Below, piece by piece: positions 12,811 to 49,922 of a DNA stretch of 49,922 bases. How positions within the stretch are numbered: position 1 is the stretch's first letter; each line of letters starts with the position of its first letter. The translations under genes and the position numbers were made by a program. This DNA comes from Bacillota bacterium. GTDB lineage: Bacteria; Bacillota; Clostridia; UBA1381. The notes under the pieces are model-generated. The model made no database searches. It was not told the origin of the DNA and saw nothing but the letters and a program-made list of their open reading frames with translations. The stretch covers positions 1-49,922 of the forward strand of contig JAQXIJ010000086.1 of NCBI GenBank assembly GCA_029007725.1, in the 5' to 3' direction.

Positions 12811-13404
12811 TCACACATTTTCCGCATTTGCAACCATTCGTGCAAGCTCCTCCGGCGAAATCATTCGGTTTATCGCAGCCAACAGCATATTTGCGGATAT
12901 TTTTGACGGTAAACCCATCGCCGCGGCGATTTTGTTTCGCAGCGCACTGCTGTTTTCGCCGCCGCAAAGTCCGAGCTGCACCAAGTCTGCTTTGGTAATA
13001 TCGGATAATTTTTCTGTCTTGCTGCCGTCAATTTCACAGCCGCTTTTTATCAGAGCATTCAAAATCGTATTATTATCAATACCCTCTACTCCCAAAAGCC
13101 CCTCCTTGCCGGGGAGGCGCTTACGCCGCTCCTTGCCATGAATTTCCGGAATGTATGCGTGCTTTACCTGTTCTTCCGGCACAAGCTGCTTTACAAAGCT
13201 GCGAATTTTAAACCCCGCCGCATCGGAATCGGTAAGAACTACAATTCCTGTTTTTTCCGCAAGGGTTTTGATTGACTCCTGTGCCTTTTTATTGTTGAAC
13301 ACCGAAAATCCGCCAGTCACAAAAATAAGACCGTCCAGAAATCCCGATAGCCGTATTTTATCGTATATACCCTCAACAATAACCGTTTCCTTTATCTTAT
13401 ACAT
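12811..13404 (-). CDS. rnmV: Ribonuclease M5
   Basis: RNase M5 (197 aa) matures 5S rRNA in Gram-positive bacteria. The Toprim domain shows VIVEG (catalytic Glu11) and VLTDSDAAG (Asp59, Asp61). It is followed by the family segment HAYIPEIHGKERRKRLPGKEGLLGVEG in two halves and a C-terminal DUF4093-like extension. Unlike many Firmicutes it is not next to ksgA; instead it leads an operon with an ABC exporter and a HAD phosphatase. A GGCGGAG ribosome binding site precedes the ATG. Confidence 0.9.
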   Translation of the reverse strand: MYKIKETVIVEGIYDKIRLSGFLDGLIFVTGGFSVFNNKKAQESIKTLAEKTGIVVLTDSDAAGFKIRSFVKQLVPEEQVKHAYIPEIHGKERRKRLPGKEGLLGVEGIDNNTILNALIKSGCEIDGSKTEKLSDITKADLVQLGLCGGENSSALRNKIAAAMGLPSKISANMLLAAINRMISPEELARMVANAENV

Positions 13405-13474: not shown

Positions 13475-13557
13475 TAAAAGTTTACATTTTGTTCATACAC
13501 TTGCGGCATATTCGTATTATAATATACAGAGTAATATTGATACAGAGGTGAAAACAG

Positions 13558-14817
13558 ATGTCAGATATTGATAACTTTGATTTAAGCAGTGATGAAACAG
13601 AAAACAAAGGAGAGCGTTCTGACGAAAACGGCGGCGACGCAGCCGAAATCAGCGGCACAACAGAAACAGCACCCACAGAAAACAGCGGTACAGCCGAAAA
13701 CATCTTTAATTCATCCGATGAACGGACTGAGTTTGAAAAGGAGCTTGAAAACTATCTTCCCACTCCCGAAAGCACAGGCAAACTTAAAAAGCCGATGCCG
13801 TCGTGGCTTTGGGCCGTGCTTGCTTCGGTGCTTACAACCGTGATTTTGTTTGCACTCTACTCATTGCTTGTGGTTCCTCATCTCAAGCCGTCGGCGGTAA
13901 TCTCATATGTACAGGGTTCCAACAAACCCGACTCTGCTGACACTTCGGATCTGAGCAGCATAAATGAAAAAGTGACGCCCGGCATTGTTACGGTTTCCGG
14001 CAGTTCCAAATACACAAACTTTTTCGGAATGTCATCTTCCGCCAGCACAGGTTCAGGGATTATCATAAGTCCGGATGGATATATTCTTACCAGCAACTCG
14101 CTTGTCAGCTCTGACGGAGAAACAACTGTTGTTATGCCGGATAAAAGCAAACATACCGCAACAATCGTCGGCGCAGACGAAAATAAGGATATCGCAATAC
14201 TCCATATAAATGCTTCCAATCTGCCTGCTCTCACACTTGCTAATTCCGACAATGTACGTCCAGGCGATACATCAATCGTAATCGGAAATATGCTTGGTTC
14301 CGCACTTGGAACGTCAATAACTCGCGGCATTATCTGCGGTGTTAACAAAAGTGTATCACTCCAGAACGGCGGTACAATAAACCTTTTGCAGACCGATGCG
14401 GCAACAACATCAAACAATGCCGGCGGCTGCCTGTTAAACACCAACGGAGAGGTCATCGGTATGATTACCTACGCAATTTCAACAAATGCCGGCAACATAA
14501 GTTTTGCCATTCCGTCAAATGACATAAAAAACGTTACAGAATCTCTGATTAACACAGGCTCAGCACCCGAATCTCCTATTATAGGCATAACCGGAACAGG
14601 TTCTGATCACGGGGTTGTGATTGATTCCGTTGTTGATGATTCACCCGCGAAGAAATCCGGGCTTAAAGAGGGTGACCTTATCTTAAAGGTTGACGACACT
14701 CCGGTAAAATCGGTTGAAGAAATCAACAAAATCCGCGACACTCATAAAAAGGGTGAAACAATAAAAATCACGATTTACCGAGACGGCAACACTCTTGATG
14801 TTAAAGTGGTCTTATAA
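13558..14817 (+). CDS. HtrA-like trypsin-PDZ membrane protein lacking the catalytic triad (probable pseudoprotease)
   Basis: A 419-aa DegP/HtrA-type protein: acidic Ser/Thr/Glu-rich cytoplasmic N-terminus (1-78), one membrane helix (about 82-107), trypsin-like domain (about 135-325) and a PDZ domain (about 341-419). The fold-defining motifs are clear, but the catalytic His of the usual TNNHV motif is Ser (T-S-N-S-L, residue 181). The nucleophile Ser of GNSGGP is Ala (N-N-A-G-G-C, residue 288). Only the Asp (D211) remains. The reading frame is intact, so this looks like a maintained non-proteolytic binder rather than a decaying gene. It has its own transcription unit, divergent from rnmV. Confidence 0.88.
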   Translation: MSDIDNFDLSSDETENKGERSDENGGDAAEISGTTETAPTENSGTAENIFNSSDERTEFEKELENYLPTPESTGKLKKPMPSWLWAVLASVLTTVILFALYSLLVVPHLKPSAVISYVQGSNKPDSADTSDLSSINEKVTPGIVTVSGSSKYTNFFGMSSSASTGSGIIISPDGYILTSNSLVSSDGETTVVMPDKSKHTATIVGADENKDIAILHINASNLPALTLANSDNVRPGDTSIVIGNMLGSALGTSITRGIICGVNKSVSLQNGGTINLLQTDAATTSNNAGGCLLNTNGEVIGMITYAISTNAGNISFAIPSNDIKNVTESLINTGSAPESPIIGITGTGSDHGVVIDSVVDDSPAKKSGLKEGDLILKVDDTPVKSVEEINKIRDTHKKGETIKITIYRDGNTLDVKVVL

Positions 14818-15002: not shown

Positions 15003-16214
15003 TCACATAATTATCCTTCTCTGCTCCAGTCTTGATTTTTCTGCTGCAAGCGTCAGGCGATGTGCCTCAAAAATTCTGTGGTCAATTCGGTAATTCTCAT
15101 TTTCCATCGACTCCGCAAAATACCGCATCAGTCCACCGTCGCCGCCGCAGTGACGTGTTTCGTCGTGGGATACCGAAAATCGCTCCTCGCAGTTTTCAAA
15201 AAAACGCCTAAGAACAATCTGCCCGTCCTCCATGCAGCCTCCAATTTCGCCGTCAGTGCCCATCAACTTAATCGTCCTTGTATTTCGCAGTGAAAAGGCC
15301 GACACTGTGAAAACGGCGCATAGACCTCCGGTCATCTCCATAGCGGCAACCTGATGGTCGCAAACGTCATTGTCGCAGCGGTATACACACCTTCCATAAG
15401 GATTGGTTTTCAGAGCATCGATTATGCAATTTCTTTCCGTTCCGCATTCAAACTTATCTACAAAATATGACGCGGCACCATCAGTATACAGCTTTACTGC
15501 ATTATATTTGCACTCCGCGGCAAAAGGGCAGCTGTCGGTGCACCTTTTTGGAACATCTCCCGGCGCATTTTCTGTGCTAAAATACCCGTTTGATCCATAC
15601 GACGTTATGCTTTTGCAGCTGCTTCCTGTGAGATACAGAATAAGATCAAAATCGTGGCATGATTTTGCCACAATAAGCGGTGAAGAAGTCTTTGAATTAT
15701 TCCACTGTCCACGCACATAGCTGTGCGCATGATGCCAGTAGCCTTCATTTTCATTAATCTGCATATTCATAATCTTTCCGATTTTACCGCTGTCCGTAAT
15801 CTCTTTTATTTTTTTGATAAATGGCGTGTACCTGAGCACAAACCCCGTCATAAACACTCTGTTGTATCCGCAAAGCGCCGCTTCAAGCCGATCTATTTCC
15901 TCACAAAACGGAGAAATTGGCTTTTCGAGCAAAATGTGGTATCCACATTCAATTGCCATAAGCGCCGGTTCAAGATGCATTCGGTCCTGCGTACAAATCA
16001 GAACCGCATCTGCAAGCCTTCCTTTTCTGAACAACTGTCTGTAATTCGCAAATGCCATATTTTCCGCAATGTTGTATTCACTGCAAAATTCACTTCGTTT
16101 CTGCAAATCCGGCTCGGCAACCCCGATAATTTTAATTATTCCCGTCTTTTTAATATACGGCGCATAAGAATCCTTGCCCCTGCCGCCCGCGCCGATAATA
16201 ATACATGTTTTCAT
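15003..16214 (-). CDS. Gfo/Idh/MocA oxidoreductase with a cysteine-rich segment
   Basis: An NAD(P)-dependent sugar oxidoreductase family member (403 aa): Rossmann start IIGAGGRGKDSY, dinucleotide/substrate motif EKP (97-99), then the C-terminal alpha/beta domain. Residues 225-285 carry eight cysteines (225, 229, 235, 257, 263, 276, 280, 285) around NPYGRCVYRCDNDVCDHQ, a feature of one subfamily and possibly a metal or Fe-S site. The substrate is unknown. It lies 9 nt after a second Gfo/Idh/MocA gene and is the last gene of the locus. Confidence 0.85.
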   Translation of the reverse strand: MKTCIIIGAGGRGKDSYAPYIKKTGIIKIIGVAEPDLQKRSEFCSEYNIAENMAFANYRQLFRKGRLADAVLICTQDRMHLEPALMAIECGYHILLEKPISPFCEEIDRLEAALCGYNRVFMTGFVLRYTPFIKKIKEITDSGKIGKIMNMQINENEGYWHHAHSYVRGQWNNSKTSSPLIVAKSCHDFDLILYLTGSSCKSITSYGSNGYFSTENAPGDVPKRCTDSCPFAAECKYNAVKLYTDGAASYFVDKFECGTERNCIIDALKTNPYGRCVYRCDNDVCDHQVAAMEMTGGLCAVFTVSAFSLRNTRTIKLMGTDGEIGGCMEDGQIVLRRFFENCEERFSVSHDETRHCGGDGGLMRYFAESMENENYRIDHRIFEAHRLTLAAEKSRLEQRRIIM

Positions 16215-16223
16215 TTTCTTTTC

Positions 16224-17192
16224 CTATATGATAATTGAATTTTCAAGTATTCGTTCTACCAGCCTTACACTTGCCTGTGAGCTTTCCGGTGTTACAATCT
16301 GCGGCTTTGTACCGTTTTTCACACACGAAACAAAATATTCGATTTCTCCGACGTATCCGTCCACACCGGAAATGTTTATGCCGGTATCGCTGCTTAGAGC
16401 TTCTGTTGTCAACTCAATTTCGTTGCCGTTTGCGAATATTTTTTCACCCTTATATTCCACGGCTCCGTTTTCAAAAACAGCTTTGAAGCTCGCTTCAAAA
16501 GGAATATTGTAATTATACCACGTTGCCTCTGCCGACACTATGCACTTGTCATATACAAGTTCGGATATAATATAATCATTGTTGTTTTTCAGCTTGTGAT
16601 ATACTCCCCGAACCTCCTTTGGCTCTCCGAGTACATACTGCACAAAGTCAATGTCGTGGATAGACAAATCAATCGGTGTACCGCCGCTCTTTTTCAAGTC
16701 GCGCATCCAATCCTGCCAGCTCCATGTCGGAATCGCCGAAATGCGTTTCATGTCAAGACGCAAAAGCTCGCCATACTCTTTTGAATTTATCACATTTTTA
16801 AGATATATATACGGTGTCATAAATCTGACAACATGAGCTGTCATGAATAGCTTTCCTGATCGTTTTACCGCCTCAGTAACCGCCTGTGTATCTGCCGAAG
16901 AAAGGCTCATCGGCTTTTCAGACAACACGTTTATTCCATGCTCCAATGCTTTTATGCTCATTTCGCGGTGCATATAGCTCGGTGTACATATATCAGCTAT
17001 ATCAGGTTTTTCATTTACCAAAAGATCATCAATACTTTCGTATATATTTATCCCTTCGCCGCCGACCTTTTCCTTAGCCATATCTGTGCGGACATCACAT
17101 ACCGCAATCACCTCGGCATCGGCAATATTTTTGTAGCAGTTGAAATGGACACCTCCCATTCCGCCTATTCCTATAAGTGCAACTTTTATCAT
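16224..17192 (-). CDS. Gfo/Idh/MocA family oxidoreductase
   Basis: A 322-aa sugar or cyclitol dehydrogenase-like protein. The Rossmann motif is VALIGIGGMGGVH, the EKP motif is at 92-94, and WSWQDWMRDLKKSGGTPID leads into the conserved catalytic D-x3-H pattern (DLSIHDIDFVQY). Its ATG overlaps the stop of the upstream TIM-barrel gene by 4 nt (ATGA), so they are coupled. The substrate is unknown; sugar, inositol or glycoside oxidation are family possibilities. Confidence 0.87.
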   Translation of the reverse strand: MIKVALIGIGGMGGVHFNCYKNIADAEVIAVCDVRTDMAKEKVGGEGINIYESIDDLLVNEKPDIADICTPSYMHREMSIKALEHGINVLSEKPMSLSSADTQAVTEAVKRSGKLFMTAHVVRFMTPYIYLKNVINSKEYGELLRLDMKRISAIPTWSWQDWMRDLKKSGGTPIDLSIHDIDFVQYVLGEPKEVRGVYHKLKNNNDYIISELVYDKCIVSAEATWYNYNIPFEASFKAVFENGAVEYKGEKIFANGNEIELTTEALSSDTGINISGVDGYVGEIEYFVSCVKNGTKPQIVTPESSQASVRLVERILENSIII

Positions 17193-18004
17193 ATCAATCC
17201 CTCCAACAATTTTTTTGCATCTTTTATATCATTAATCTGCCGTTCGCCCGAAATTTCGCGTTCTATTGTAAGAGTGCCGTCATATCCCACAGACCGCAGT
17301 TTGTCTATAAACTTCGGAAAATTGACCTTTCCCTGACCGAGCGGCATTTCTTTGCCAAGATGCCTGCCGTCCGTAGGATAGCAGCCGTCCTTTGCATGAA
17401 CATCCCGTACATATTTGCCAAATGCGTCAAGCGCATCGGTAGGGTTTGCCTTGCCATACATAATCAAATTGGCAGGGTCAAGGTTTATGCCGAGGTTGCC
17501 CGTTCCGACATCTTCGATGGTTCTGCGCAGAGTAACCGGTGTTTCTTGACCTGTTTCAAACAGAAAGTATTGCCCGTTGTTTTTTACATACCCTGCAACG
17601 TTTTTAAGTGCTGCCACTATTGCATGATACTGTTCTCCAGCCGGCACCTCGGGCAAAAATCCCGCATGAGTTGCCATGTTTTTTACACCCAGAAGCTTTG
17701 CAAAATCCGAGCCATGCATAAGTTCTTTCATCCGTTCAAAGCGATACTCGGCAGGCACAATTCCAAGTGTCAGAGGTCCTTCATAGAAGTCCCACACCGC
17801 GGGGCCGCTCCATCCGCACCAAAATGTTGAAATGTGCACTGAATATTTTTCGCAGCATTCTCTGATTTTTTCCGCATTATCCGGCGTCATCAGCTCACTG
17901 TGCCAACAGTCAAGCTGACATGACTCAAATCCAAACTCATTCACTTGTCTAAATTTGCTTTCTATATTTTCATCGACAAAGCGCACCATAACCCCAAGCT
18001 CCAT
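17189..18004 (-). CDS. Sugar phosphate isomerase/epimerase family TIM-barrel protein
   Basis: A 271-aa xylose-isomerase-like (AP endonuclease 2 superfamily) TIM barrel. The likely metal ligands are intact: Glu in FLFETGQE, Asp in INLDPANL, His in RDVHAKDG and Glu in LTIEREISG. Family members isomerise or epimerise sugars, or cleave oxidised sugar derivatives. It is the first gene of the minus-strand operon, after an AGGAGG, and is divergent from an AraC regulator. Its pairing with two Gfo/Idh/MocA genes suggests it acts on their product. Confidence 0.85.
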   Translation of the reverse strand: MELGVMVRFVDENIESKFRQVNEFGFESCQLDCWHSELMTPDNAEKIRECCEKYSVHISTFWCGWSGPAVWDFYEGPLTLGIVPAEYRFERMKELMHGSDFAKLLGVKNMATHAGFLPEVPAGEQYHAIVAALKNVAGYVKNNGQYFLFETGQETPVTLRRTIEDVGTGNLGINLDPANLIMYGKANPTDALDAFGKYVRDVHAKDGCYPTDGRHLGKEMPLGQGKVNFPKFIDKLRSVGYDGTLTIEREISGERQINDIKDAKKLLEGLI

Positions 18005-29352: not shown

Positions 29353-30207
29353 TTAAACTCCCGAATATGCTGAAAACCCTCCGTCAACAGGAAGTACTAT
29401 GCCTGTTATAAAGCCCGCCGCTTCGTTATTTAGCAGGAACAAAACACTTCCGTCAAGCTCGTTTGTTTCTCCGAATCTTCCCATGGGCGTAGCAGCTAAA
29501 ATTTTACCTGTTCTTTCTGTCGGTGTACCATCCTCATTAAATAACAGGTCTGCATTCTGCTTAGTTGAGAAAAAACCCGGGGCTATCGCATTTACTCTTA
29601 TCCCTGCTTTACTAAAATGTACTGCAAGCCACTGCGTGAAATTTGATACTGCAGCTTTTGCTCCCGAATATGCCGGTATCTTCGTCAGGGGAGTAAATGC
29701 ATTCATACTTGAAATATTTAGAATATTGCACCCTTTTTTTCCCAGCATCTGACTTGCAAAAACCTGAGTGGGGATAAGTACACCCATAAAATTCAGGTTA
29801 AACACAAACTCTACTCCCTGAGCGTCCAAATCAAAAAAACTTTTCGTACCGCTGTCCATATTCTTTATATCAAAGTATTCATTATCCGTCGTCGCTCTCG
29901 GATTGTTTCCGCCCGCTCCGTTTATAAGAATATCACAGCTGCCCAGATCTTTTTTTACTTCATCCGCAGTACGGCTGCATATTTCCTTATCGAGCACATT
30001 GCATTTGTATGCTTTTGCCGTTCCTCCCTCGCTTATAATTTCATCGGCATACTTCTTTGCAGATTCAAAATTTAAGTCCAAAAGAGCAACCTTTGCCCCC
30101 GCTCTTGCCAATGTTTTTGCAAAAGCGGAGCAAAGAACGCCGCCCGCTCCCGTTACAACCGCAGTTTGTCCTCTTAAATCGGTATCAAGTACATTTTTTT
30201 TCATCAT
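29353..30207 (-). CDS. SDR oxidoreductase, probable D-mannonate oxidoreductase (fructuronate reductase)
   Basis: A 284-aa classical short-chain dehydrogenase: cofactor motif TGAGGVLCSAFA (about 16-27), NGAGG, the catalytic Ser in NISSMN, and YSGAK (Tyr-x3-Lys). It ends VLPVDGGFSAYSGV. SDR proteins of this type next to uxuA usually interconvert fructuronate and mannonate, taking the place of the unrelated UxuB. The ATG at 30207 follows AAAGGG by 9 nt. It is last in the operon, 4 nt after uxuA. Confidence 0.82.
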   Translation of the reverse strand: MMKKNVLDTDLRGQTAVVTGAGGVLCSAFAKTLARAGAKVALLDLNFESAKKYADEIISEGGTAKAYKCNVLDKEICSRTADEVKKDLGSCDILINGAGGNNPRATTDNEYFDIKNMDSGTKSFFDLDAQGVEFVFNLNFMGVLIPTQVFASQMLGKKGCNILNISSMNAFTPLTKIPAYSGAKAAVSNFTQWLAVHFSKAGIRVNAIAPGFFSTKQNADLLFNEDGTPTERTGKILAATPMGRFGETNELDGSVLFLLNNEAAGFITGIVLPVDGGFSAYSGV

Positions 30208-30211
30208 TATA

Positions 30212-31261
30212 TTAATCCCTTTCTGCTTTCTCACATGCCTCAAAAAGTCCGTTTATATATGCCGCACCTAAAGCACGGTCATACAGTCCGTATCCCGGTC
30301 TGCCCTTTTCGCCCCAGATCATGCGGCCGTGGTCAGGACGTACATATCCGTCAAATCCGGTATCCGTCAGCGCTTTTACAATCTTATACATATTAAGCGA
30401 ACCGTTCTTTGACAGATGTCCACATTCTTCAAAGCTGCCGTCCGAAAGAAGCTTTATCTGACGTATGTGCATAAATGCTATCCTGTCCATTCCGCTGTAT
30501 TTTCTTACGAGCTTTTCAACATCGTTAAATGGACCGCTCCCAAGCGAACCGGTGCACAGGCACAGACTGTTTGCCGGGCTGTCCGCTATCGCAAGCATTC
30601 TGTCTATATTTTTTTCATTTGTTATAATTCTCGGCAGACCAAATATCGAATACGGCGGATCATCAGGGTGTATCGCCATTCTTACGCCGCATTTTTCCGC
30701 TGTTGGAATAATCTTTTTCAAAAATCTCTCAAGATTTTTCCAAAGCCCCTCCTCCCCCAAATCGGAATATGCTGCTATTAGATCTCTTACCTGATCCTGC
30801 GTATAGCTTGCATCCCATCCCGGCAGCTTTATATCAGTCTTGAGCGGATCAAGCGTTTCCAGTTGATCCTTGTACATTACAAGTGAAGCAGAGCCATCGG
30901 GCGCTTCCTTATCGACCTGAGTGCGCGTCCAGTCAAATACGGGCATAAAATTATATGTTATGCACTTTACACCGTATTCTGCGCAACGCTCGATATTCCG
31001 GCAGTAAATATCCGTCAGCTCATCAGCATTATCCTCACCGAGCTTTATATTTTCATGAACCGGTACGGATTCCACAACATCAAACTTCAGAGCGTTATTC
31101 TCGCACTGCTTTTTTATTTTTGCAATGCTCTCTCTCGGCCAAAGTTCTCCCGGTTTTACGTCATATACGGCACTTACCACAGAATGCATATTCGGTATCT
31201 GGCGTATATATTTCAATGGTATGGGATCATAATCTCCGTACCATCTAAAAGACATTTTCAT
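30212..31261 (-). CDS. uxuA: Mannonate dehydratase
   Basis: UxuA (349 aa) dehydrates D-mannonate to 2-keto-3-deoxygluconate. Key stretches are MKMSFRWYGDYDPIPLKYI at the start, IHPDDPP, LCLCTGSLG, FMHIRQI and VRPDHGRMIWGE, which carry the metal-binding His, Cys, His and Asp residues. The ATG at 31261 follows GAGGGG by 9 nt. It lies between uxaC and the SDR gene, the pathway order. Confidence 0.95.
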   Translation of the reverse strand: MKMSFRWYGDYDPIPLKYIRQIPNMHSVVSAVYDVKPGELWPRESIAKIKKQCENNALKFDVVESVPVHENIKLGEDNADELTDIYCRNIERCAEYGVKCITYNFMPVFDWTRTQVDKEAPDGSASLVMYKDQLETLDPLKTDIKLPGWDASYTQDQVRDLIAAYSDLGEEGLWKNLERFLKKIIPTAEKCGVRMAIHPDDPPYSIFGLPRIITNEKNIDRMLAIADSPANSLCLCTGSLGSGPFNDVEKLVRKYSGMDRIAFMHIRQIKLLSDGSFEECGHLSKNGSLNMYKIVKALTDTGFDGYVRPDHGRMIWGEKGRPGYGLYDRALGAAYINGLFEACEKAERD

Positions 31262-31284
31262 CTTATTTGTCCCCTCGTTCTGTT

Positions 31285-32652
31285 TCAAAAGTTAAAATAT
31301 TTTTTTGCGTTATAATAGCAAATCCCCTCTGTGATATTCTTTAAGGCTTTTTCATCTCTCGGATATTCTCCTTTTTCAACCCATTCGCCGATAAGATTAC
31401 ATAAGATACGCCTGAAATACTCATGCCTGGTATAGGAAACAAAGCTCCTTGAATCCGTAAGCATTCCCACAAACCGTCCCAGTATCCCGAGATTTGCCAG
31501 AGAAGTCAACTGCGACGTCATACCGTCTCGGTTATCGTTAAACCACCAGCCGGAGCCGAACTGTAATTTCCCGGGGACGGGTGCGCTTTGAAAATTGCCT
31601 ATCATTGCGCCGATAACATAATTATCCTTCGGATTTAAGGTATATATTATTGTTTTGGGCAGTGCACCGTAATTTTCAAGATTATCCAAAAGCTTTGCCA
31701 GCTTTTCGGCAATACACATATCGTTTATTGAGTCAAAACCGCTATCGGCGCCGATGCTGTTAAACATTCTCGTATTGTTGTTGCGCAGTGCGCCTATATG
31801 AAGCTGCATTGCCCAACCGTGTTTTGCGTATGCCTCGGCGCAGCGGTTCATTATGTCTGTTTTGTATACTTCCGCCTCTTTGACGCTTAACTCTTTTCCG
31901 TTCATTTTCTTTTCAAAAATATCCGCCGCATTGCCGGTTGCAAAAGGTACAAAACTCATAGAATGGTCCGACAGCCGGCAGCCGTTTTCATGAAAATATT
32001 CTATTCTCTCGCACAATCTGCTCACAAGTTCATTATATGTTTTTGCACCGGTTTTTTCTATGTAGGAATTAAAGTCCGGATTTTGTATATCAAACGCCTT
32101 ATCGGGTCGGAAGGTAGGAAGAACTTTTGATGAAAATCCGTCCTCTATTATCTTTTTGTGAGGCTCAAGACTGTCAAACGGATCGTCCGTTGTGCATATT
32201 ACCTCAACATTCGATCGCTCTATCAGATGTCTTGATGAAAAAGTATCAGACTGAAGCATATTACCGCATTTATCCCATATCGATGCCGCGCTGTCCTCTG
32301 TCAGCGGTTCGTCTATATCAAAATACCGTTTAAGCTCAAGTGCTGTCCAATGGTACAGCGGATTCCCTATAAGAAGTGGCATTGTTTCGGCAAATGCTTG
32401 CCATTTTTCATAATCGCCGCCGTCACCGGTTATAAACCTTTCGTCGATGCCGTTGCTGCGCATCTGACGCCATTTGTAATGATCTGAGGCCAAAAATAAC
32501 TCATACGCATTTTTGAATTTTATATTCGTAGCAATCATGTTCGGATCCAGGTGACAATGGTAATCTATTATAGGCAAATTCTTTGCGTATGTGTTGTATA
32601 AATATCTGCCCGTATCATTGTAAAGCATAAAATTATCGTTTATTATTCCCAT
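31285..32652 (-). CDS. uxaC: Glucuronate isomerase
   Basis: UxaC (455 aa) converts D-glucuronate to D-fructuronate (and galacturonate to tagaturonate). The amidohydrolase-like metal motif DYHCHLDP appears near residue 30. EVICTTDDPFDSLEPHK, GALRNNNTRMFN and the GWWFNDNRDGM segment are family hallmarks. The ATG at 32652 follows GGTGGAG by 6 nt and overlaps the end of the upstream oxidoreductase by 10 nt. Confidence 0.95.
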   Translation of the reverse strand: MGIINDNFMLYNDTGRYLYNTYAKNLPIIDYHCHLDPNMIATNIKFKNAYELFLASDHYKWRQMRSNGIDERFITGDGGDYEKWQAFAETMPLLIGNPLYHWTALELKRYFDIDEPLTEDSAASIWDKCGNMLQSDTFSSRHLIERSNVEVICTTDDPFDSLEPHKKIIEDGFSSKVLPTFRPDKAFDIQNPDFNSYIEKTGAKTYNELVSRLCERIEYFHENGCRLSDHSMSFVPFATGNAADIFEKKMNGKELSVKEAEVYKTDIMNRCAEAYAKHGWAMQLHIGALRNNNTRMFNSIGADSGFDSINDMCIAEKLAKLLDNLENYGALPKTIIYTLNPKDNYVIGAMIGNFQSAPVPGKLQFGSGWWFNDNRDGMTSQLTSLANLGILGRFVGMLTDSRSFVSYTRHEYFRRILCNLIGEWVEKGEYPRDEKALKNITEGICYYNAKKYFNF

Positions 32653-33827
32653 CTCACTCTCCACCTTTCTTGATACGTTCCGCCCTTGCCGTAATATGAC
32701 TCATCACAGCTGTAATGTGATGTCATAATCTTTTTCGAAAGCATTTTGTCAAATTCAGCCGTTTCAAGCGGCAGCTTTATCTCGGCATTATGCTTCCACT
32801 GTGACATATACGCGGCATTAGAAAGCATCAGTTCGTAAATACCATCGCTCCCGGGAGAAATAAGACTGCTGCCGTAAAGAATTGCATCGGCAAAATTCTG
32901 CAGTATTCCCATATGCCCTGTTTCCGGTCTATCTTGATTATACTCACAGTATTCATAAGGAATACTTGCAAAGGATTCCTTTGAAGTACGGCATACCTCG
33001 CCTGTTTCCATGCTGAGTTTCCAATGCTTAAGCTTTCCGTTTTCAAGCACAAGTTTTCCCCTGCTGCCCGATATTTCAAGACGGTTTGTACCCGGATATT
33101 CTCCTGTAGAGGTTATAAAAACTCCCTGTGCTCCGTTTTTGTATCTTGTAATCAGCTTTGCGCTGTCCTCTACCTCGATATTATGATAAAGGCCCGTATA
33201 GCAGAACGCCGTGACTGAATTAGGCATTCCGCATACCCACTGCCATATATCAAGATTATGCGGCGCTTGATTAAGCAGCACACCTCCGCCCTCGCCGGCC
33301 CATGTTGCTCTCCATCCGCCGGAGTCGTAATAGCTCTGCGTTCTGAACCAATTTGTAACAATCCATATCGTGCTTTCAAGAGCTCCTATACCTCCGCTTT
33401 TAACAATTTCTCTCGCTTTGACAAAAAGTGAATTTGTCCGCTGGTTAAACATTATTCCGAACACTTTTCCTGACCGTTCGGCGGTTTTATTCATTCTTGC
33501 TGCTTTGGAAACGGTTATGTCTGCTGGTTTTTCTACCATGACATGCATGCCGCTTTCAAGGGCTTTTTCGGCAAAATCCGCATGCAGTCTGTGCGGAACA
33601 GCAATTATCACGGCGTCGGCTTTGCCTTTTTCAAGCATCTTACCGAAACTTTCATAAGTGTCTATGCCGGGATGAGACGAGGCAAATGCATGAAGTCTTT
33701 CTGTATTTATGTCGCACACCTCTGAAAGTACCATCCCTTTGATTTTCCCGATTGAAATGCACTCCGCATGTGCTGATCCCATATTTCCTATTCCAACAAC
33801 AGCCGTTTTTATGTTGTCCGTACACAT
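32643..33827 (-). CDS. Gfo/Idh/MocA oxidoreductase (paralogue B)
   Basis: A 394-aa oxidoreductase: Rossmann VGIGNMGSAH (about 11-20), EKP at 99-101, and the active-site region GGWRATWAGEGGGVLLNQAP with the conserved HNLD. It shares long identical stretches with the next gene upstream (FNQRTN, YYDSG, WRATWAGEGGGVLLNQ, VFITSTG/VFVTSTG), so the two arose by duplication. The pair may form a heteromer or act on related sugars. The gap to paralogue A is 5 nt. Confidence 0.87.
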   Translation of the reverse strand: MCTDNIKTAVVGIGNMGSAHAECISIGKIKGMVLSEVCDINTERLHAFASSHPGIDTYESFGKMLEKGKADAVIIAVPHRLHADFAEKALESGMHVMVEKPADITVSKAARMNKTAERSGKVFGIMFNQRTNSLFVKAREIVKSGGIGALESTIWIVTNWFRTQSYYDSGGWRATWAGEGGGVLLNQAPHNLDIWQWVCGMPNSVTAFCYTGLYHNIEVEDSAKLITRYKNGAQGVFITSTGEYPGTNRLEISGSRGKLVLENGKLKHWKLSMETGEVCRTSKESFASIPYEYCEYNQDRPETGHMGILQNFADAILYGSSLISPGSDGIYELMLSNAAYMSQWKHNAEIKLPLETAEFDKMLSKKIMTSHYSCDESYYGKGGTYQERWRVRWE

Positions 33828-33832
33828 ATCAC

Positions 33833-35005
33833 TTATTTGTTGCCTCCGTATGTACCGCGTGTATCTGTATATATCTGCTTAACGTTTTTCTTTTCTTTTG
33901 AGTTTTTAACGCGCTTCATAAGCTCGTAATAATACAAATCCTCGTCAAACGGTATTTCAATCGCTTTTCCCAAAAATGCCGAAAGATGCATTGCATTTGA
34001 CAGCATAAGCCCGTTTATTCCCTCTCTGCCGTCAGCAACAAGCTTCCCGCCTCTTAAAATTGCATTTGCCCAAGCGTTTAAAACCCCTGTATGCTGCGGA
34101 TTTTTACCATCCGTTTCAACCTCATAAACTTTGCTGTTTACCGTTGCAAATCCCTTCAGATTTGTTTCAGAAAATTCCTGTTCGGTCATCTCATATTCTT
34201 CCATAATAATTTTTTCGTTTTCAACAACAATCTTTGCTCTGTCAAGCTGCAGTTCAAGGCGGTTTGTTCCATGCGCATCTCCGGTTGATGTAACGAATAC
34301 TCCTGTTGCGCCGTTTTCATATTCCATATAGGCTGTTACATCATCTTCTACTTCAATGTTGTGCCATTGTCCGTAATGAAGATGGGCTTCGACAGTTTTT
34401 GGCATACCGCATATCCACTGCCACATATCAAGCTGATGAGGGCACTGGTTAAGCAGCACACCTCCGCCCTCGCCGGCCCATGTTGCTCTCCAATTTCCAG
34501 AATCATAATATGCCTGCGAACGATACCAATCCGTTATAATCCAGTTTATACGTCTTATCCGTCCATATTCGCCGGATTGGACAAGTTCTCTTACTTTTCT
34601 GTACAGGCAGTTTGTGCGCTGATTGAACATCATTCCGAATACAACTTCCGGATGGCGGTCCGCCTCCTTATTCATCTCGCGAACCTGCTTTGTGTAAACT
34701 CCGGCGGGCTTTTCCACCATTACATGAATGCCTCGTTTCATACATTCTATTGCATATTTCGGATGGTCATAATGCGGAACAGATATAATACATGCATTTA
34801 TCAGACCGCTGTCAAGCATTTTTATCGTATCGTCAAAATATACCGCATCACCGGGCAGATTTGCCTTTCCCCATTCAATTCGTTCGTGGTTTATTTCTGC
34901 TACAGCTGCAAGTTCTATGTCCGGGCACATTCCGGTTGTTATGTTTCCGGCATGTCCCGTGCCCATATTTCCAAGTCCTATAATTCCTAATTTCAGTTTA
35001 TCCAT
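33833..35005 (-). CDS. Gfo/Idh/MocA oxidoreductase (paralogue A)
   Basis: A 390-aa NAD(P)-dependent oxidoreductase: IIGLGNMGTGH (8-18), EKP at 98-100, and NWRATWAGEGGGVLLNQCPHQLD around the catalytic region. The C-terminus ends TDTRGTYGGNK, echoing the GGTYQERWR end of its paralogue. Members of this family oxidise the C3 hydroxyl of glycosides or sugars, among other reactions. Its position between TIM-barrel genes and uxaC suggests a step feeding glucuronate, but the substrate is unknown. Confidence 0.87.
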   Translation of the reverse strand: MDKLKLGIIGLGNMGTGHAGNITTGMCPDIELAAVAEINHERIEWGKANLPGDAVYFDDTIKMLDSGLINACIISVPHYDHPKYAIECMKRGIHVMVEKPAGVYTKQVREMNKEADRHPEVVFGMMFNQRTNCLYRKVRELVQSGEYGRIRRINWIITDWYRSQAYYDSGNWRATWAGEGGGVLLNQCPHQLDMWQWICGMPKTVEAHLHYGQWHNIEVEDDVTAYMEYENGATGVFVTSTGDAHGTNRLELQLDRAKIVVENEKIIMEEYEMTEQEFSETNLKGFATVNSKVYEVETDGKNPQHTGVLNAWANAILRGGKLVADGREGINGLMLSNAMHLSAFLGKAIEIPFDEDLYYYELMKRVKNSKEKKNVKQIYTDTRGTYGGNK

Positions 35006-35045
35006 AATAAACTCCTTTACAGGTTAAGCTTTTAATGTGTTACAT

Positions 35046-35783
35046 TTAAAATCCTTGTGCCTTTAAATATTCATAGCTCCTCTTCAGACAGTCAAAAGGA
35101 TTTTCACCGTTGCATTCATCCTGTTCAACAAGCATATATTGCGTTCCGGCCGTTTCGGCTTTTTCAAAAACCCGCTCAAAATTTATATTTCCCTCGCCTA
35201 TAACAGCCATTTCTCTGCCGAAAGAATAATCCTTAAGATGAATACACGGTACTCTGCCGGTCAGCTTTTCAATCCAATATCCCGGATCTCCGCCACCTAC
35301 CTGTATCCAAAACGTATCCAGCGTAAATCCCATTATTTCGGATGGGAAACGCTCTGCAAGCTGATCAAGGATTAGCTTTCCGTCTTTCTTGATAAACTCG
35401 ATGTCATGATTGTGATACATAAAATATTTTCCGTCTTCTGTTATTGTCTTTGCTGGCTCAAGGAATAGCGAACAAAAGTCGTCAACCGTTTTTTCCTTAA
35501 AATTATAATATCCCAGACCGACATATTTACAGCCGAATGTTGTATGAGCGTCGCATACCTTTTTAGGATCCGCTATAATCTGTTCCTGCGGTATGTGAGT
35601 AAGAACGCACTTCAGCCCGTTTTCTCTCAGTTTTTCACTCAGCCATTCTGCCGTGTAATCGCATGTTCCCGAGATTTGAACATTTTTATATCCGATTTCT
35701 GCCACCTTTTTCAGTGTTTCGGAAAAATCGTCAAGATTTTTGCAGAAATCTCTTACCGTATAAAGCTGTGCTCCTATTTCCAT
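35046..35783 (-). CDS. Sugar phosphate isomerase/epimerase family TIM-barrel protein (IolE-like)
   Basis: A 245-aa xylose-isomerase-like TIM barrel. It has GAQLYTVRDF at the start, FMYHNHDIEF, GFTLDTFWIQ, CIHLKDYS and MLVEQDEC, which provide the usual Glu/His/Asp metal ligands. It starts one base after the preceding TIM-barrel gene ends. In other systems similar proteins isomerise sugars or eliminate the aglycone from 3-keto-glycosides. Confidence 0.86.
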   Translation of the reverse strand: MEIGAQLYTVRDFCKNLDDFSETLKKVAEIGYKNVQISGTCDYTAEWLSEKLRENGLKCVLTHIPQEQIIADPKKVCDAHTTFGCKYVGLGYYNFKEKTVDDFCSLFLEPAKTITEDGKYFMYHNHDIEFIKKDGKLILDQLAERFPSEIMGFTLDTFWIQVGGGDPGYWIEKLTGRVPCIHLKDYSFGREMAVIGEGNINFERVFEKAETAGTQYMLVEQDECNGENPFDCLKRSYEYLKAQGF

Positions 35784-35784
35784 A

Positions 35785-36633
35785 TTATATCTCCTCCATT
35801 AATGCTTTAAATTCAGCGCATGCCGCGTCAAATGCTTCATCATCTGACTTATATGAGTATTTACCCACAACACTTTTTTCCCCTTCGCACTCAAGTCTTG
35901 AAAGTCCTTCGAATACCGCAAGATGCGGCTCTACCGTAAACACATTTCCTCCATTTCTCATATACATTTTTACAAGTTCTTTTATCTTGCCGTTTCCTTT
36001 GCCGGCCGGAACCACACTCCCGTCTGTCAGCGAATCCTTTATGTGCATATATTTGATATGTTTTCCAATCATATTCCATGCCTTTAATGTATCAGCTCCG
36101 CACTGAATAAAATTTGCCGGATCGAATACACCCTTTATTTTAGGTACGGCCTGTAATATATCAAAACAGCGCTCAGGTGTATCACCGTAAATACCCTTTT
36201 CGTTTTCATGGCAAAGAGTAATGCCGGATCCGGAGGCCATTTCGGCAAATTGTCCAAGTCGGTATATAACCTTGTTTTTAAACTCTGAAGGAGCTTTCTC
36301 CTTAGGAATATAAAACGAAAATATACGTATATTTTCAGCGTTAAGAATGTGTGCTACCTCAAGAGTATGCTTAAATTTCTCAACATCAGAACTAAAATCG
36401 TCGTCTATATCAGTTTTACCCAAAGGCGACCCCACAGACCATACCGAAAGGCCGTTTGCTTCAAGCTTCTTTCTAACCTCAGCCGCTTTTTCAAATGTAA
36501 TTTCAGACACATTCGTTCCGTCAACATTCCGTATCTCAATTCCATCGAGCACGTTCCTTTTCATTGCATCTATCTGAGCATCAATCTTTGGACTTGCTTC
36601 ATCGGCAAAAGCGTAAATCTTTATATCTTTCAT
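35785..36633 (-). CDS. Sugar phosphate isomerase/epimerase family TIM-barrel protein
   Basis: A 282-aa TIM barrel of a different subgroup from its neighbour, starting MKDIKIYAFADEASP. Metal ligands appear intact: Glu in LCHENEKG, Asp in VFDPANFI, His in YMHIKDS and Glu in FTVEPHL. It is the first gene of the seven-gene operon. The start is uncertain: an ATG at 36645 lies 1 nt after GGAGG (too close), while 36633 is 13 nt after it and fits the family. Confidence 0.85.
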   Translation of the reverse strand: MKDIKIYAFADEASPKIDAQIDAMKRNVLDGIEIRNVDGTNVSEITFEKAAEVRKKLEANGLSVWSVGSPLGKTDIDDDFSSDVEKFKHTLEVAHILNAENIRIFSFYIPKEKAPSEFKNKVIYRLGQFAEMASGSGITLCHENEKGIYGDTPERCFDILQAVPKIKGVFDPANFIQCGADTLKAWNMIGKHIKYMHIKDSLTDGSVVPAGKGNGKIKELVKMYMRNGGNVFTVEPHLAVFEGLSRLECEGEKSVVGKYSYKSDDEAFDAACAEFKALMEEI

Positions 36634-36704
36634 ACTGTTTACCATGCCTCCTTTTTATAAACACCGGATAAAATATCTGTGGTAATACGCTTATCACAAC
36701 ATTC

Positions 36705-47069: not shown

Positions 47070-47144
47070 GCGGGTGTAGTTCAATGGCTAGAATTCCAGC
47101 CTTCCAAGCTGGCTGTGTGGGTTCGATTCCCATCACCCGCTCCA
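47070..47144 (+). tRNA. tRNA-Gly (anticodon TCC)
   Basis: 75 nt with CCA. Acceptor GCGGGTG/CACCCGC, anticodon loop CTTCCAA (TCC). First of five tRNAs in one transcription unit. Confidence 0.95.
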
Positions 47145-47151
47145 CAAATAC

Positions 47152-47228
47152 GCGTCTGTAGCTCAGTCGGATAGAGCAACTGCCTTCTAAGCAGTGGGCC
47201 AGGGGTTCGAATCCCTTCAGACGCGCCA
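47152..47228 (+). tRNA. tRNA-Arg (anticodon TCT)
   Basis: 77 nt with CCA. Acceptor GCGTCTG/CAGACGC, anticodon loop CTTCTAA (TCT), reads AGA/AGG. Confidence 0.95.
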
Positions 47229-47241
47229 CTTTCTTGGATAT

Positions 47242-47319
47242 GGTGGATATAGTTCAGCTGGTTAGAGCGTCAGTTTGTGGCACTGAATGTCGTGGGTTCG
47301 AATCCCACTATCCACCCCA
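47242..47319 (+). tRNA. tRNA-His (anticodon GTG)
   Basis: 78 nt including the extra G at position -1 (47242), which pairs with the C discriminator at 47316; CCA is encoded. Acceptor GTGGATA/TATCCAC, anticodon loop TTGTGGC (GTG). Confidence 0.95.
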
Positions 47320-47360
47320 CTTTTTTTATTTATAGTATAACAGGATTATGCATACGATAT

Positions 47361-47436
47361 AGGGATATAGCCAAGCGGTAAGGCACCAGATTTTGATTCT
47401 GGCATTTCGTAGGTTCGAATCCTGCTATCCCTGCCA
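47361..47436 (+). tRNA. tRNA-Gln (anticodon TTG)
   Basis: 76 nt with CCA. Acceptor AGGGATA/TATCCCT, anticodon loop TTTTGAT (TTG). Confidence 0.94.
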
Positions 47437-47512
47437 GGGCCATTAGCTCAGTTGGCAGAGCACTTGACTTTTAATCAAGTTGTCCGGAGTTCGAATCTCC
47501 GATGGCTCACCA
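47437..47512 (+). tRNA. tRNA-Lys (anticodon TTT)
   Basis: 76 nt with CCA. Acceptor GGGCCAT/ATGGCTC (one G-U), anticodon loop CTTTTAA (TTT). It starts at the base after the CCA of tRNA-Gln, so the two must be separated by processing without any spacer. Confidence 0.95.
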
Positions 47513-47525
47513 TAACCATATTAAA

Positions 47526-47562
47526 CAAAATCCCCGAATTTATTGTTTTTTCGGGGGTTTTG
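47526..47562 (+). terminator. Terminator of the tRNA cluster
   Basis: CAAAATCCCCGAA (47526-47538) pairs with TTCGGGGGTTTTG (47550-47562), a strong GC core with a T-rich tail. The A-rich left flank could also act on the converging gene at 47675. Confidence 0.85.
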
Positions 47563-47674
47563 CTTTTTCGGAAACAATTAATAAAGCCGATTAATATGTA
47601 TTTTATTTTAAGCAGTAGACTTTTTATTAGCCTGCTGCTTTTGTTTATTATTTTATTTCCTTGTCTACTGTAAA

Positions 47675-48289
47675 TTATACTCTTGGGTCATCTGGATATT
47701 TACCAACAGGATATTTCCCCCAGTAAGTGCCGCGAGGATGTTCTGAATTTGCATTTTTTCTGCGAAGTCTATTTTTCCAGAATTTATCCTTTTTCATTAC
47801 TTTTTCTATTTCTATATTTTCGAGTGATTTTTGTATTTTCTCTAAATTATCATTTATATATTTATATAAAAGTAAATTTTCTCGCTCTATTTTATTCTTT
47901 GCATTTATATATGCAGCAGATTTGCTGTTTATATCTCTTACAAGCTTATAGTTAGTCATTAAAATCTCATATTTTCCAGAATTTAACAACCATTCATTAT
48001 GTTTAATAAGAGTTGGTAGAAGTTTTTCCCATACACCATTTTTGCGCCATTCGTTAAATCGATGGGCATGGTTATCAATATTGCCATATTCATAGGGCAA
48101 CTCTTTCCAATTCATTCGTAAAGAGTATGGCTCTTTCTTATGTATTAAATACAGGACTGCATCAATAAAAAGTCGTGTATCTCTTTCTTTGAGTTTGTCA
48201 TTTTTGCCTTCTCTGCCGCCAAATTGTTTTGGTATGATATTCTTTATATCCTCCCACATATTAATATTGTTTGTCACAAATTCATCCAT
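47675..48289 (-). CDS. Free-standing protein with an IS5-type DUF4096 domain
   Basis: A 204-aa protein. Residues about 10-100 match the N-terminal DUF4096 domain of IS5/IS402 transposases: W-x2-I-x2-IP near the start, a GREGKNDKLKERDTRLFIDAV stretch in two parts, WKELPYEYGNIDNHAHRFNEW and GVWEKLLP. The rest is not the DDE catalytic domain but a charged, probably helical region (110-165) and a basic tail (KNRLRRKNANSEHPRGTYWG). It has its own good promoter and intact frame. The start is ATG at 48289 after AGGTGAT; GTG at 48298 overlaps that site. It may be a domesticated DNA-binding domain or a family with a coincidental match. Confidence 0.65.
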   Translation of the reverse strand: MDEFVTNNINMWEDIKNIIPKQFGGREGKNDKLKERDTRLFIDAVLYLIHKKEPYSLRMNWKELPYEYGNIDNHAHRFNEWRKNGVWEKLLPTLIKHNEWLLNSGKYEILMTNYKLVRDINSKSAAYINAKNKIERENLLLYKYINDNLEKIQKSLENIEIEKVMKKDKFWKNRLRRKNANSEHPRGTYWGKYPVGKYPDDPRV

Positions 48290-48307
48290 ATTTATCACCT
48301 ATGGGTT

Positions 48308-48336
48308 ATTATATCATTTTATATAATAAAAAGCAA
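48308..48336 (-). promoter_or_regulatory. Promoter of the DUF4096 gene
   Basis: -35 TTGCTT (48336-48331), 17 bp, -10 TATAAT (48313-48308). The leader is only about 10 nt before the ATG. Confidence 0.65.
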
Positions 48337-48430
48337 CTACTATTATGAAATATAAAAATAAATATACAACATTTCAAAAAAAGTCACCAGATATTATAGT
48401 CGTATTCTTTTCGAAAGCCAGGTGATTGAA

Positions 48431-48592
48431 TTGGAGTTTGATTTTGAAATAAGTGAAGAACAGGCAGAGCAGTTCGCTATGGAATTATATTATGGCTCTG
48501 ATTTGATTGCCGATATTAAAAAATGTATAGCTGATAATCGAGAAGAGTATGTACATTTTCTGGAAGAAGAAAGGGGACGATGTAATGGATAG
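48431..48592 (+). CDS. Small acidic protein (53 aa), unknown (TTG start)
   Basis: A TTG at 48431, about 4 nt after AGGTGAT, opens 53 codons reading MEFDFEISEEQAEQFAMELY and ending EEERGRCNG before a TAG. The protein is strongly acidic, with no membrane segment. It precedes another acidic unknown gene on the same strand with about 70 nt between. No family was recognised; the ribosome binding site and codon use make it a reasonable gene of the accessory region. Confidence 0.5.
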   Translation: MEFDFEISEEQAEQFAMELYYGSDLIADIKKCIADNREEYVHFLEEERGRCNG

Positions 48593-48661
48593 AGGAGGAT
48601 AAGGTGACCATCTATGTTTCAATATCTAATAAGAATTAATTAAAAATAGGAGAATTAAAAA

Positions 48662-48904
48662 ATGTTAGGGGTTATTGAAAATGGAAAATTAAGAGTTTTT
48701 AACAGTGCGGAAGATATTGACCCAAAGGAAACTGAGCTGAAAAGAGTAGCGACCGCATATGAAGAAATGTTGAAAGAAGAAAGGGAATTATATGGTGAAG
48801 ATGAAGATAACATTGAATTTTGGAATTCACCCGTGGGGCGCAGTTTTCTTGCAAATCCACAGTCACTTGTTGATTTGTTGACAGGGAGAGAAGAAAATGA
48901 ATAA
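48662..48904 (+). CDS. Hypothetical acidic protein (80 aa)
   Basis: An intact frame from ATG at 48662 with AGGAG 9 nt upstream. It starts MLGVIENGKLRVFNSAEDID and has a likely helical, Glu-rich middle (KRVATAYEEMLKEERELYGE) and an end with NSPVGRSFLANPQSLVDLL. It is soluble and acidic, with no recognised family. It overlaps the next (broken) gene by 8 nt, so they were one operon. Confidence 0.65.
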   Translation: MLGVIENGKLRVFNSAEDIDPKETELKRVATAYEEMLKEERELYGEDEDNIEFWNSPVGRSFLANPQSLVDLLTGREENE

Positions 48905-49417
48905 ACAGAAATTAAATAATTACAAATTGAATGCGAGTATTCATACTTTTTCTGTAAAAAGTCAATGTTGCCCTGCTCTGCCGATGACATATGACCGCAA
49001 AATGGTTGACACGATAAAATTACCAAGGACAGGCTCATTTTTAACGCGAGTAAACTTAAATAAGTTGCACGGTGATATTTTTTTTTGCTTATAGTGAATT
49101 TCAGGCGAATGCTACTGAATTGTTCAATAGTATGCAAATACCGCAATTTACTTATTGGCGTACTGATATTCGTCTGGATAGTTATGAAGATAATTTTAGT
49201 GCGTACTATAAACTGAATTTATTGCTGATTAGCTTACCAAAGTCCGGTTGATATTCTCTTTAACGGTCTTGAGGAAGAAAATCCGGAGCATATTGCGGTG
49301 CGGCAATACAAAATTTTTAAGCAAGCCGGCGGCAAAACAGCAAAGTCAATCTTGGTTTCTGCGGCGGTGCGGCTTGCGGCATTTAACTTGCCGGAGATAG
49401 CAAAAATGACATCATAA
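48897..49417 (+). pseudogene. Frameshifted gene of unknown function
   Basis: It starts MNKQKLNNYKLNASIHTF with SQCCPALPMTYDRKMVDTIK. At a run of nine T residues (49078-49086) the frame breaks. Reading on in the next frame gives AYSEFQANATELFNSMQIPQ and TYWRTDIRLDSYEDNFSAYY, then a stop at about 49250. A further one-base shift near 49226 restores AYQSPVDILFNGLEEENPEH and KQAGGKTAKSILVSAAVRLA to a TAA at 49415-49417. Joined, it would be about 172 aa. No family was recognised. Either a decayed gene or, for the T run, a sequencing error. Confidence 0.6.
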
Positions 49418-49922
49418 ATTTCGCCTTGTTCCCAATCTATACTTGAAAGCTTTAGCCTTACAATATCTGCTGAACGCAATCCCGTTGAGGCAGCAAGCAG
49501 AATTATAGCCATATTTCTTTTACCAAGAGCTGTACTTGTATCAATTTGTGCTAATATTTTATCCAACTCATCGTTGGTGATGTAATCCTTAACCTTATGT
49601 TGCAATGGTACGTGATAAGATAATAAATTAAAGCAATCAGGAACTTCTACATTCTGTTCTTGTAAAAAAGAATAAAATTGCCGTATGTAGCATTGAATAT
49701 CACGCAATGATGAAGATGACATTGTTGTGGCAATTTGAGTAACAAAAGCTTTGATATCGGATATTGACACATTTTGCATATCCGAATGACCATTATCCTG
49801 TAAAAACATTAAATGCTTATGTATTGCCCAATTAAAGTTACGACCACTTGTGCTGTTAAAGGTTCGTGAAGTCATAAAAGCATCTAAATGCTTTTGGAAT
49901 TCAGGTGATAATGCAGGTCTTT
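49418..49922 (-). pseudogene. Tyrosine recombinase, 3' end lost; start beyond window
   Basis: The frame enters from the right edge (PEFQKHLDAFMTSRTFNSTS, then a core-binding SAM-like domain) and reaches the catalytic domain. The first catalytic Arg is seen in AASTGLRSADIVRLK. Recognisable homology stops at DWEQGEI, near 49420, exactly where the opposing gene ends. The frame stays open to 49234, but that tail is antisense to the plus-strand gene and lacks the Lys, HxxR and Tyr motifs. The enzyme is therefore inactive unless the missing part exists elsewhere. Confidence 0.7.

Follow-up and report, generated by a model that had tools for sequence, protein, structure and literature searches.

The stretch of DNA analyzed here (the window, 49,922 nucleotides in full) contains a gene for an HtrA-like membrane protein, referred to below as the pseudo-HtrA, whose reading frame runs unbroken from an ATG at 13558 to a stop codon at 14815-14817. 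The genome it belongs to (1.65 Mb in 89 contigs, 97.6% complete) encodes two Trypsin_2 proteins, the second of which, L001 on contig C79, has an intact His-Asp-Ser triad. The features of the locus are as follows.

12811..13404, - strand: divergent gene coding for a Toprim+DUF4093 (RNase M5-like) protein, a neighbor conserved in the genus only
13477..13498, + strand: HtrA-type promoter element AAAGTTTACATTTTGTTCATAC (22 bp; reverse complement TATGAA-N5-TGTAAA), conserved upstream of pseudo-HtrAs and, less strongly, of active HtrAs
13518..13523, + strand: putative -10 box TATAAT, 19 nt past the element, from the alignment of seven upstream regions of the genus
13544..13550, + strand: Shine-Dalgarno sequence AGAGGTG, from the sequence
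13558..14817, + strand: htrA pseudoprotease gene, an intact ORF of 419 aa with Pfam and NCBIfam matches
13558..13800, + strand: acidic N-terminal segment, residues 1-81, expected to be cytoplasmic (alignment; mostly low pLDDT)
13801..13869, + strand: predicted transmembrane (TM) helix, residues 82-104, the single one of the protein
14050..14463, + strand: Trypsin_2 domain, residues 165-302 (Pfam, 94 bits against a cut-off of 27.6)
14098..14100, + strand: Ser181 (codon TCG) replacing the catalytic His, by alignment with active HtrAs
14188..14190, + strand: Asp211, the retained triad Asp, invariant in the alignment of dead-triad HtrAs but for the exception given below
14347..14349, + strand: Lys264 replacing an Arg that is invariant among active relatives (alignment)
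14404..14421, + strand: degenerate L1/oxyanion loop with Ala288 for the nucleophile Ser (alignment across the clade)
14575..14808, + strand: PDZ domain (PDZ_2), residues 340-417 (Pfam, 66 bits, above cut-off)

A trypsin-like domain followed by a PDZ domain, together with its place in the tree, makes the protein a member of the HtrA family (S1C / Do family) by descent and fold. Its scores against the curated NCBIfam models are all below threshold (TIGR02037, 204.9 against 416.2; NF047968, 204 against 470; MamO model NF040961, 65 bits against 800). There is a single PDZ domain, the protein ends at residue 419, and the acidic N-terminal segment closes with a genus-conserved ENYLPTPExT. Similar cytoplasmic tails of the form M-x-x-Y/F-x-W-... 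are seen at the N-termini of L011, L012, L015, L016, L120 and L121, from several clostridial families; canonical HtrAs of the window organism's own family have MKKYPYTDSTE-like tails in their place.

An earlier note on this DNA had described trypsin and PDZ domains in an intact frame, with Ser181 standing for the catalytic His and Ala288 for the nucleophile. The Pfam matches and the 419-aa ORF bear out the former, and alignment with active HtrAs shows the two residue assignments to be exact, giving a triad of Ser181-Asp211-Ala288 (Ala288 codon GCC, 14419-14421). Among 13 full-length dead-triad proteins the triad is S/D/A in most members, S/D/S in L006 and L007, Y/D/V in L012, and Y/Y/I in L065, as it is in the L088/L089 fragments, whereas 28 canonical relatives are all H/D/S; position 181 is thus Ser in 11 and Tyr in two of the 13, and the triad Asp is replaced, by Tyr, only in L065/L088. 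The loss extends beyond the triad. N179, H181, P245, R264, K306, the oxyanion loop 282-288 and the 311-315 loop preceding the FAIP motif do not vary among the 28 active HtrAs but are no longer fixed in the clade. Arg264, which we take to be the activation-sensor Arg (DegP R187/DegS R178), is present in all 28 active proteins and lost from 12 of the 13 dead-triad ones, leaving it in one. Loop L1 contains indels and changes at the oxyanion Gly286 and at N287 and S288, while the corresponding loop of the active paralogues is 100% identical. The N-terminal residues I135, G140 and P141 and the 244-252 loop, all invariant in active HtrAs, have also drifted. Other positions have become newly near-fixed in the clade, both in the trypsin domain (F155-F156, G261, L268, P319 and D322) and in the PDZ domain (G346, D348, H396 and Y407).

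Across the alignment of dead-triad HtrAs the protease domain has neither an invariant His nor an invariant Lys, so a replacement general base is unlikely. That these proteins still cut by means of an unusual catalytic set, for example with Ser181 or the Ser288 of some members, is thus highly improbable: the near-invariance of Ser181 and the retention of Ser288 in two members would fit such a set, but it would have to act with no invariant general base, with deletions in the oxyanion loop beside position 288, and in L065/L088 with the Asp gone as well.

Orthologues were searched for in 101 relatives and then in 70 genomes of the same bacterial family. Dead-triad proteins are encoded by six of the eight other genomes of the genus and by genera g7, g8, g11 and g13. 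The same-genus genomes G002 and G006 show no copy, and the pseudo-HtrA may therefore be dispensable. A search of 391 genomes of the class at E<=1e-84 turned up no clade member beyond the family, and the high-scoring matches from elsewhere (L016, L032, L120 and L121, with L120/L121 near the threshold) have intact triads. A scan of genome contigs yielded one named orthologue, L045 (Clostridia bacterium RGIG8725, water deer colon), and one distant HtrA besides. A PMSF tree of 50 HtrAs groups the 13 full-length dead-triad proteins, from five genera of one family of gut Clostridia, in a single clade (support 100/100, 200/200 bootstraps), whose sister is the clade of canonical clostridial HtrAs. The tree thus points to a single old loss, before the five genera diverged. 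A direct sister relationship between the intact-triad L015 and the dead-triad clade is disfavored (p-AU 0.02), despite the promoter element and tail that they have in common.

Three further sets of sequences lie at the margins of the clade. L094 (194-1294, - strand; G104, genus g14) is HtrA-like with R-N-S for H-D-S, and was excluded for its very long branch; too divergent to place, it is maybe an independent pseudoprotease. The genus g8 members L065 (473-1603, - strand), L088 (562-1248, + strand) and L089 (732-1289, - strand), of which L088/L089 are split fragments, evolve fast and have lost the whole triad (Y-Y-I), possibly representing a further step or decay. L039 (6773-7072, - strand) is a separate ORF consisting of a PDZ domain only, almost identical to that of the pseudo-HtrA L011, which lies ~2 kb away; it is a partial duplication.

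Selection was estimated with codon model M0 (F3x4, own script) on seven genus members. The pseudo-HtrA has an omega of 0.111, with an omega=1 model 438 lnL units worse, and the active paralogues of the same seven genomes an omega of 0.077; dS is near saturation, so that these values and those by domain are approximate, and the pseudo/active contrast is drawn from the same genomes. By domain the order is reversed: omega is 0.082 for trypsin and 0.045 for PDZ in the pseudo-HtrA, and 0.045 and 0.082 respectively in the active paralogue. The TM region is the least constrained part of the pseudo-HtrA (0.24). Mean pairwise identities in matched genomes are 0.82 (active) and 0.46 (pseudo) for the trypsin domain, 1.00 and 0.51 for the L1/Ser loop, and 0.66 and 0.57 for the PDZ domain. 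The codon models thus show strong purifying selection on the pseudo-HtrA and, relative to the active paralogue, a shift of constraint toward the PDZ domain and away from the protease domain.

The earlier note had named two outcomes as fatal to a selected non-proteolytic role, namely intact triads in orthologues coupled with relaxed selection, and assembly error. Neither holds: orthologues in the genus and in four further genera have the dead triad, the genus members are under purifying selection, and the substitutions are not sequencing errors because orthologues from independent genomes carry them. A decaying duplicate or an assembly error is accordingly scarcely credible. Evolution at the protein level is about twice as fast as in the active paralogue (dN tree 1.31 against 0.57), as decay would predict, but the frame is unbroken in 13 genomes, omega is ~0.1, the promoter element is conserved and the origin is single and old.

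An AlphaFold2 monomer model, built from a shallow alignment of nine sequences, has an overall pLDDT of 71, with most of the trypsin domain at ~80-90 and the PDZ domain mostly at 87-94. In VIA-align it matches DegP and DegS, among other HtrAs, with Z 27-30 across ~270 residues, and the HtrA fold is retained in the model. With the His-Asp-Ser triad absent and scores under the NCBIfam cut-offs, the protein is not expected to be an active HtrA serine protease; catalytic residues lost from a fold maintained under selection suggest an HtrA pseudoprotease. It is very unlikely that its protease domain has been repurposed as a metal or small-ligand scaffold, for which MamO is the precedent (PMC4794232): the metal-binding di-His (or H-D) of the MamO family is absent from the clade's protease domain, the only conserved His (H396) lies in the PDZ domain, and there is neither a TauE domain nor a magnetosome-type neighborhood.

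The upstream region offers a link to the active HtrAs. A block AAA(A/G)TTTACATTTTGTTCATAC followed by TATAAT is present at -76 to -90 upstream of 12 of the 13 pseudo-HtrA genes, L065 alone being without it, and it is kept across genera with entirely different gene neighbors. A matrix of the element scores 25.8-38.3 bits at these 12 promoters, against a shuffle maximum of 17.4. Because the matrix was trained on pseudo-HtrA promoters, the independent result is its matches at active HtrAs: L015 (33.8), L029 of another family (31.7), L031 (25.3) and the window genome's own active HtrA (22.3). The differing HtrA type L057-L073 does not have the element. When 189 regions upstream of ORFs 150 aa or longer were scanned, from the window and nine loci, 17.4 was surpassed only at nine pseudo-HtrA genes and at the active HtrA. 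The pseudo-HtrA is therefore likely to be co-regulated with the active HtrA. The exact promoter site is unique within the genome, and a wider regulon could not be drawn from the motif, 3-mismatch matches in the genome being not clearly above a reversed-pattern control.

The reverse complements of the element, TATGAA/TGTGAA-N5-TGTAAA, differ by 1-2 mismatches from the WalR box consensus TGTWAH-N5-TGTWAH (PMC9210968), and the genome encodes a WalR-like regulator, L142, scoring 328 bits, under the cut-off of 340, along with further regulators of OmpR type (L143-L146). Membership of a WalR regulon is a tentative lead. A version of the htrA promoter core with one mismatch precedes a LytR-CpsA-Psr wall enzyme-like gene (identity by eye) in two relatives, at L130 and L139 (both ~1501-1517, - strand), a hint of an envelope regulon.

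Within the genus, orthology is backed by gene order: five genomes share with the window both the divergent RNase M5-like gene and an ABC transporter, and in a sixth, on a short contig, the RNase M5-like gene is seen. An operon partner was considered and rejected, the neighbors being constant only within any one genus (g1 has the RNase M5-like gene and ABC transporter, g11 an alpha-amylase, tRNA_edit and DUF1015). Conservation limited to single genera argues against a functional partner, and the RNase M5-like neighbor is outside the pseudo-HtrA mechanism. Elsewhere in the window, 15003-18004 and 29353-36645 contain Gfo/Idh/MocA-type oxidoreductases, TIM-barrel isomerases, a uronate-isomerase-like gene and AraC-type regulators, and are probably clusters for sugar-acid catabolism. 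At 47070-49875, five tRNAs are followed by a tyrosine-recombinase-like ORF (49234-49875, - strand) and the contig end, possibly an integrated element.

Given these findings, we favor, with a probability of roughly 55%, a membrane-anchored HtrA pseudoprotease that is made together with an active HtrA and binds clients without cutting them. The protein would sit in the membrane of a monoderm Clostridium and face outward. One loss in its ancestor would account for the missing catalytic His and the degenerate oxyanion loop, purifying selection having kept the fold, the TM anchor and, most of all, the PDZ domain. The protein would probably be produced alongside the active HtrA, in response to one and the same envelope or secretion condition. 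The PDZ domain and remodeled protease domain may capture exposed C-termini or unfolded exported proteins, which would then be held, handed over to the active HtrA or shielded from it; we infer the co-expression, peptide binding and hand-over or shielding from the residues, constraint and promoters described above. In Bacillus anthracis a Ser-to-Ala HtrA is enough for a PDZ-dependent function (PMC6387919), and MamO activates MamE non-catalytically (PMC4794232); chaperone activity of HtrA in Gram-positives has had no definitive demonstration (PMC12826053). Points against a client binder include the drift of I135/G140/P141 and the 244-252 loop, the missing copies in G002 and G006, and neighbors that vary between genera and give no functional hint. 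The checks that the earlier note proposed all came out in favor of its suggestion of a non-proteolytic role under selection (omega ~0.11, the whole clade dead, an active HtrA elsewhere in the genome); of the two roles that it offered as examples, binding is the more probable and scaffolding the less.

The drift of I135/G140/P141 and the 244-252 loop also bears on whether the pseudo-HtrA instead forms mixed trimers with an active HtrA, as an obligate subunit or an allosteric scaffold that tunes or localizes the activity of the latter. An active paralogue in 12 of the 13 genomes that carry the pseudo form (the 13th is 58% complete), the common promoter element, the retained fold and a near-invariant L246 are all consistent with mixed trimers. 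Active HtrAs are found in nearly all genomes of the family anyway, so that co-occurrence weighs little, and a preserved common interface predicts the opposite of what is seen at I135/G140/P141 and 244-252. The drift of these segments weakens the proposal, which we consider unlikely, and suggests that oligomerization of the pseudo-HtrA may be altered. Distinctly less probable is a membrane sensor, in which signals from the wall, or misfolded protein, would be sensed by the outer PDZ/trypsin portion and relayed by the cytoplasmic tail. The tail is long and acidic and carries a conserved ENYLPTPENT motif in the genus, other genera having EYxWxQ...SY, but it differs among genera, is mostly unstructured (low pLDDT) and is joined to the least constrained part of the protein, the TM region; a similar tail on intact-triad HtrAs of related families means that it is not peculiar to the dead form.

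A more specific version of the client-binding reading is a dedicated, co-induced anti- or co-protease, in which the dead HtrA protects chosen exported clients from the active HtrA or delivers them to it; we put this forward tentatively, as something short of an even chance. If it is true, the ratio of cutting to non-cutting HtrAs would set envelope quality control. A natural HtrA lacking the cutting residues, maintained by selection and having a promoter element in common with the active HtrA, offers a ready-made separation-of-function case.

Compared with canonical Gram-positive HtrA/DegP-DegS proteins (TIGR02037; L001), the pseudo-HtrA has the same single N-terminal TM helix, trypsin fold and one C-terminal PDZ domain, and a related promoter element, but is without the catalytic His and Ser and has a degenerate oxyanion loop and activation Arg. 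The earlier note held that HtrA pseudoproteases are rarely described in bacteria; this is qualified by MamO and the MamE-clade copies (PMC4794232) and by the 42 of 966 prokaryotic serine-protease homologues catalogued as inactive (PMC2605481). No description of the clostridial dead-HtrA clade was found in the open-licence papers searched. The inactive homologues of PMC2605481 have likewise lost catalytic residues, but form a sequence catalogue, whereas the clostridial case is a clade with evidence from selection, domain constraint and promoters. The iRhom/Derlin proteins (PMC6451368) are comparable by analogy only, as membrane pseudoproteases acting beside active relatives, and are eukaryotic and of unrelated fold. 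A further parallel is MamO/pseudo-MamE (PMC4794232), where a pseudoprotease likewise derived from HtrA accompanies an active HtrA and is kept for a role other than catalysis; the clostridial protein differs in its independent origin, in having neither the TauE domain nor a conserved metal-binding His, in keeping a single PDZ domain, and in sitting outside any magnetosome island. Bacteria were already known to have HtrA pseudoproteases; the clostridial clade is an independently evolved instance of this familiar kind, and shows that such proteins have also arisen in bacteria away from magnetosomes.
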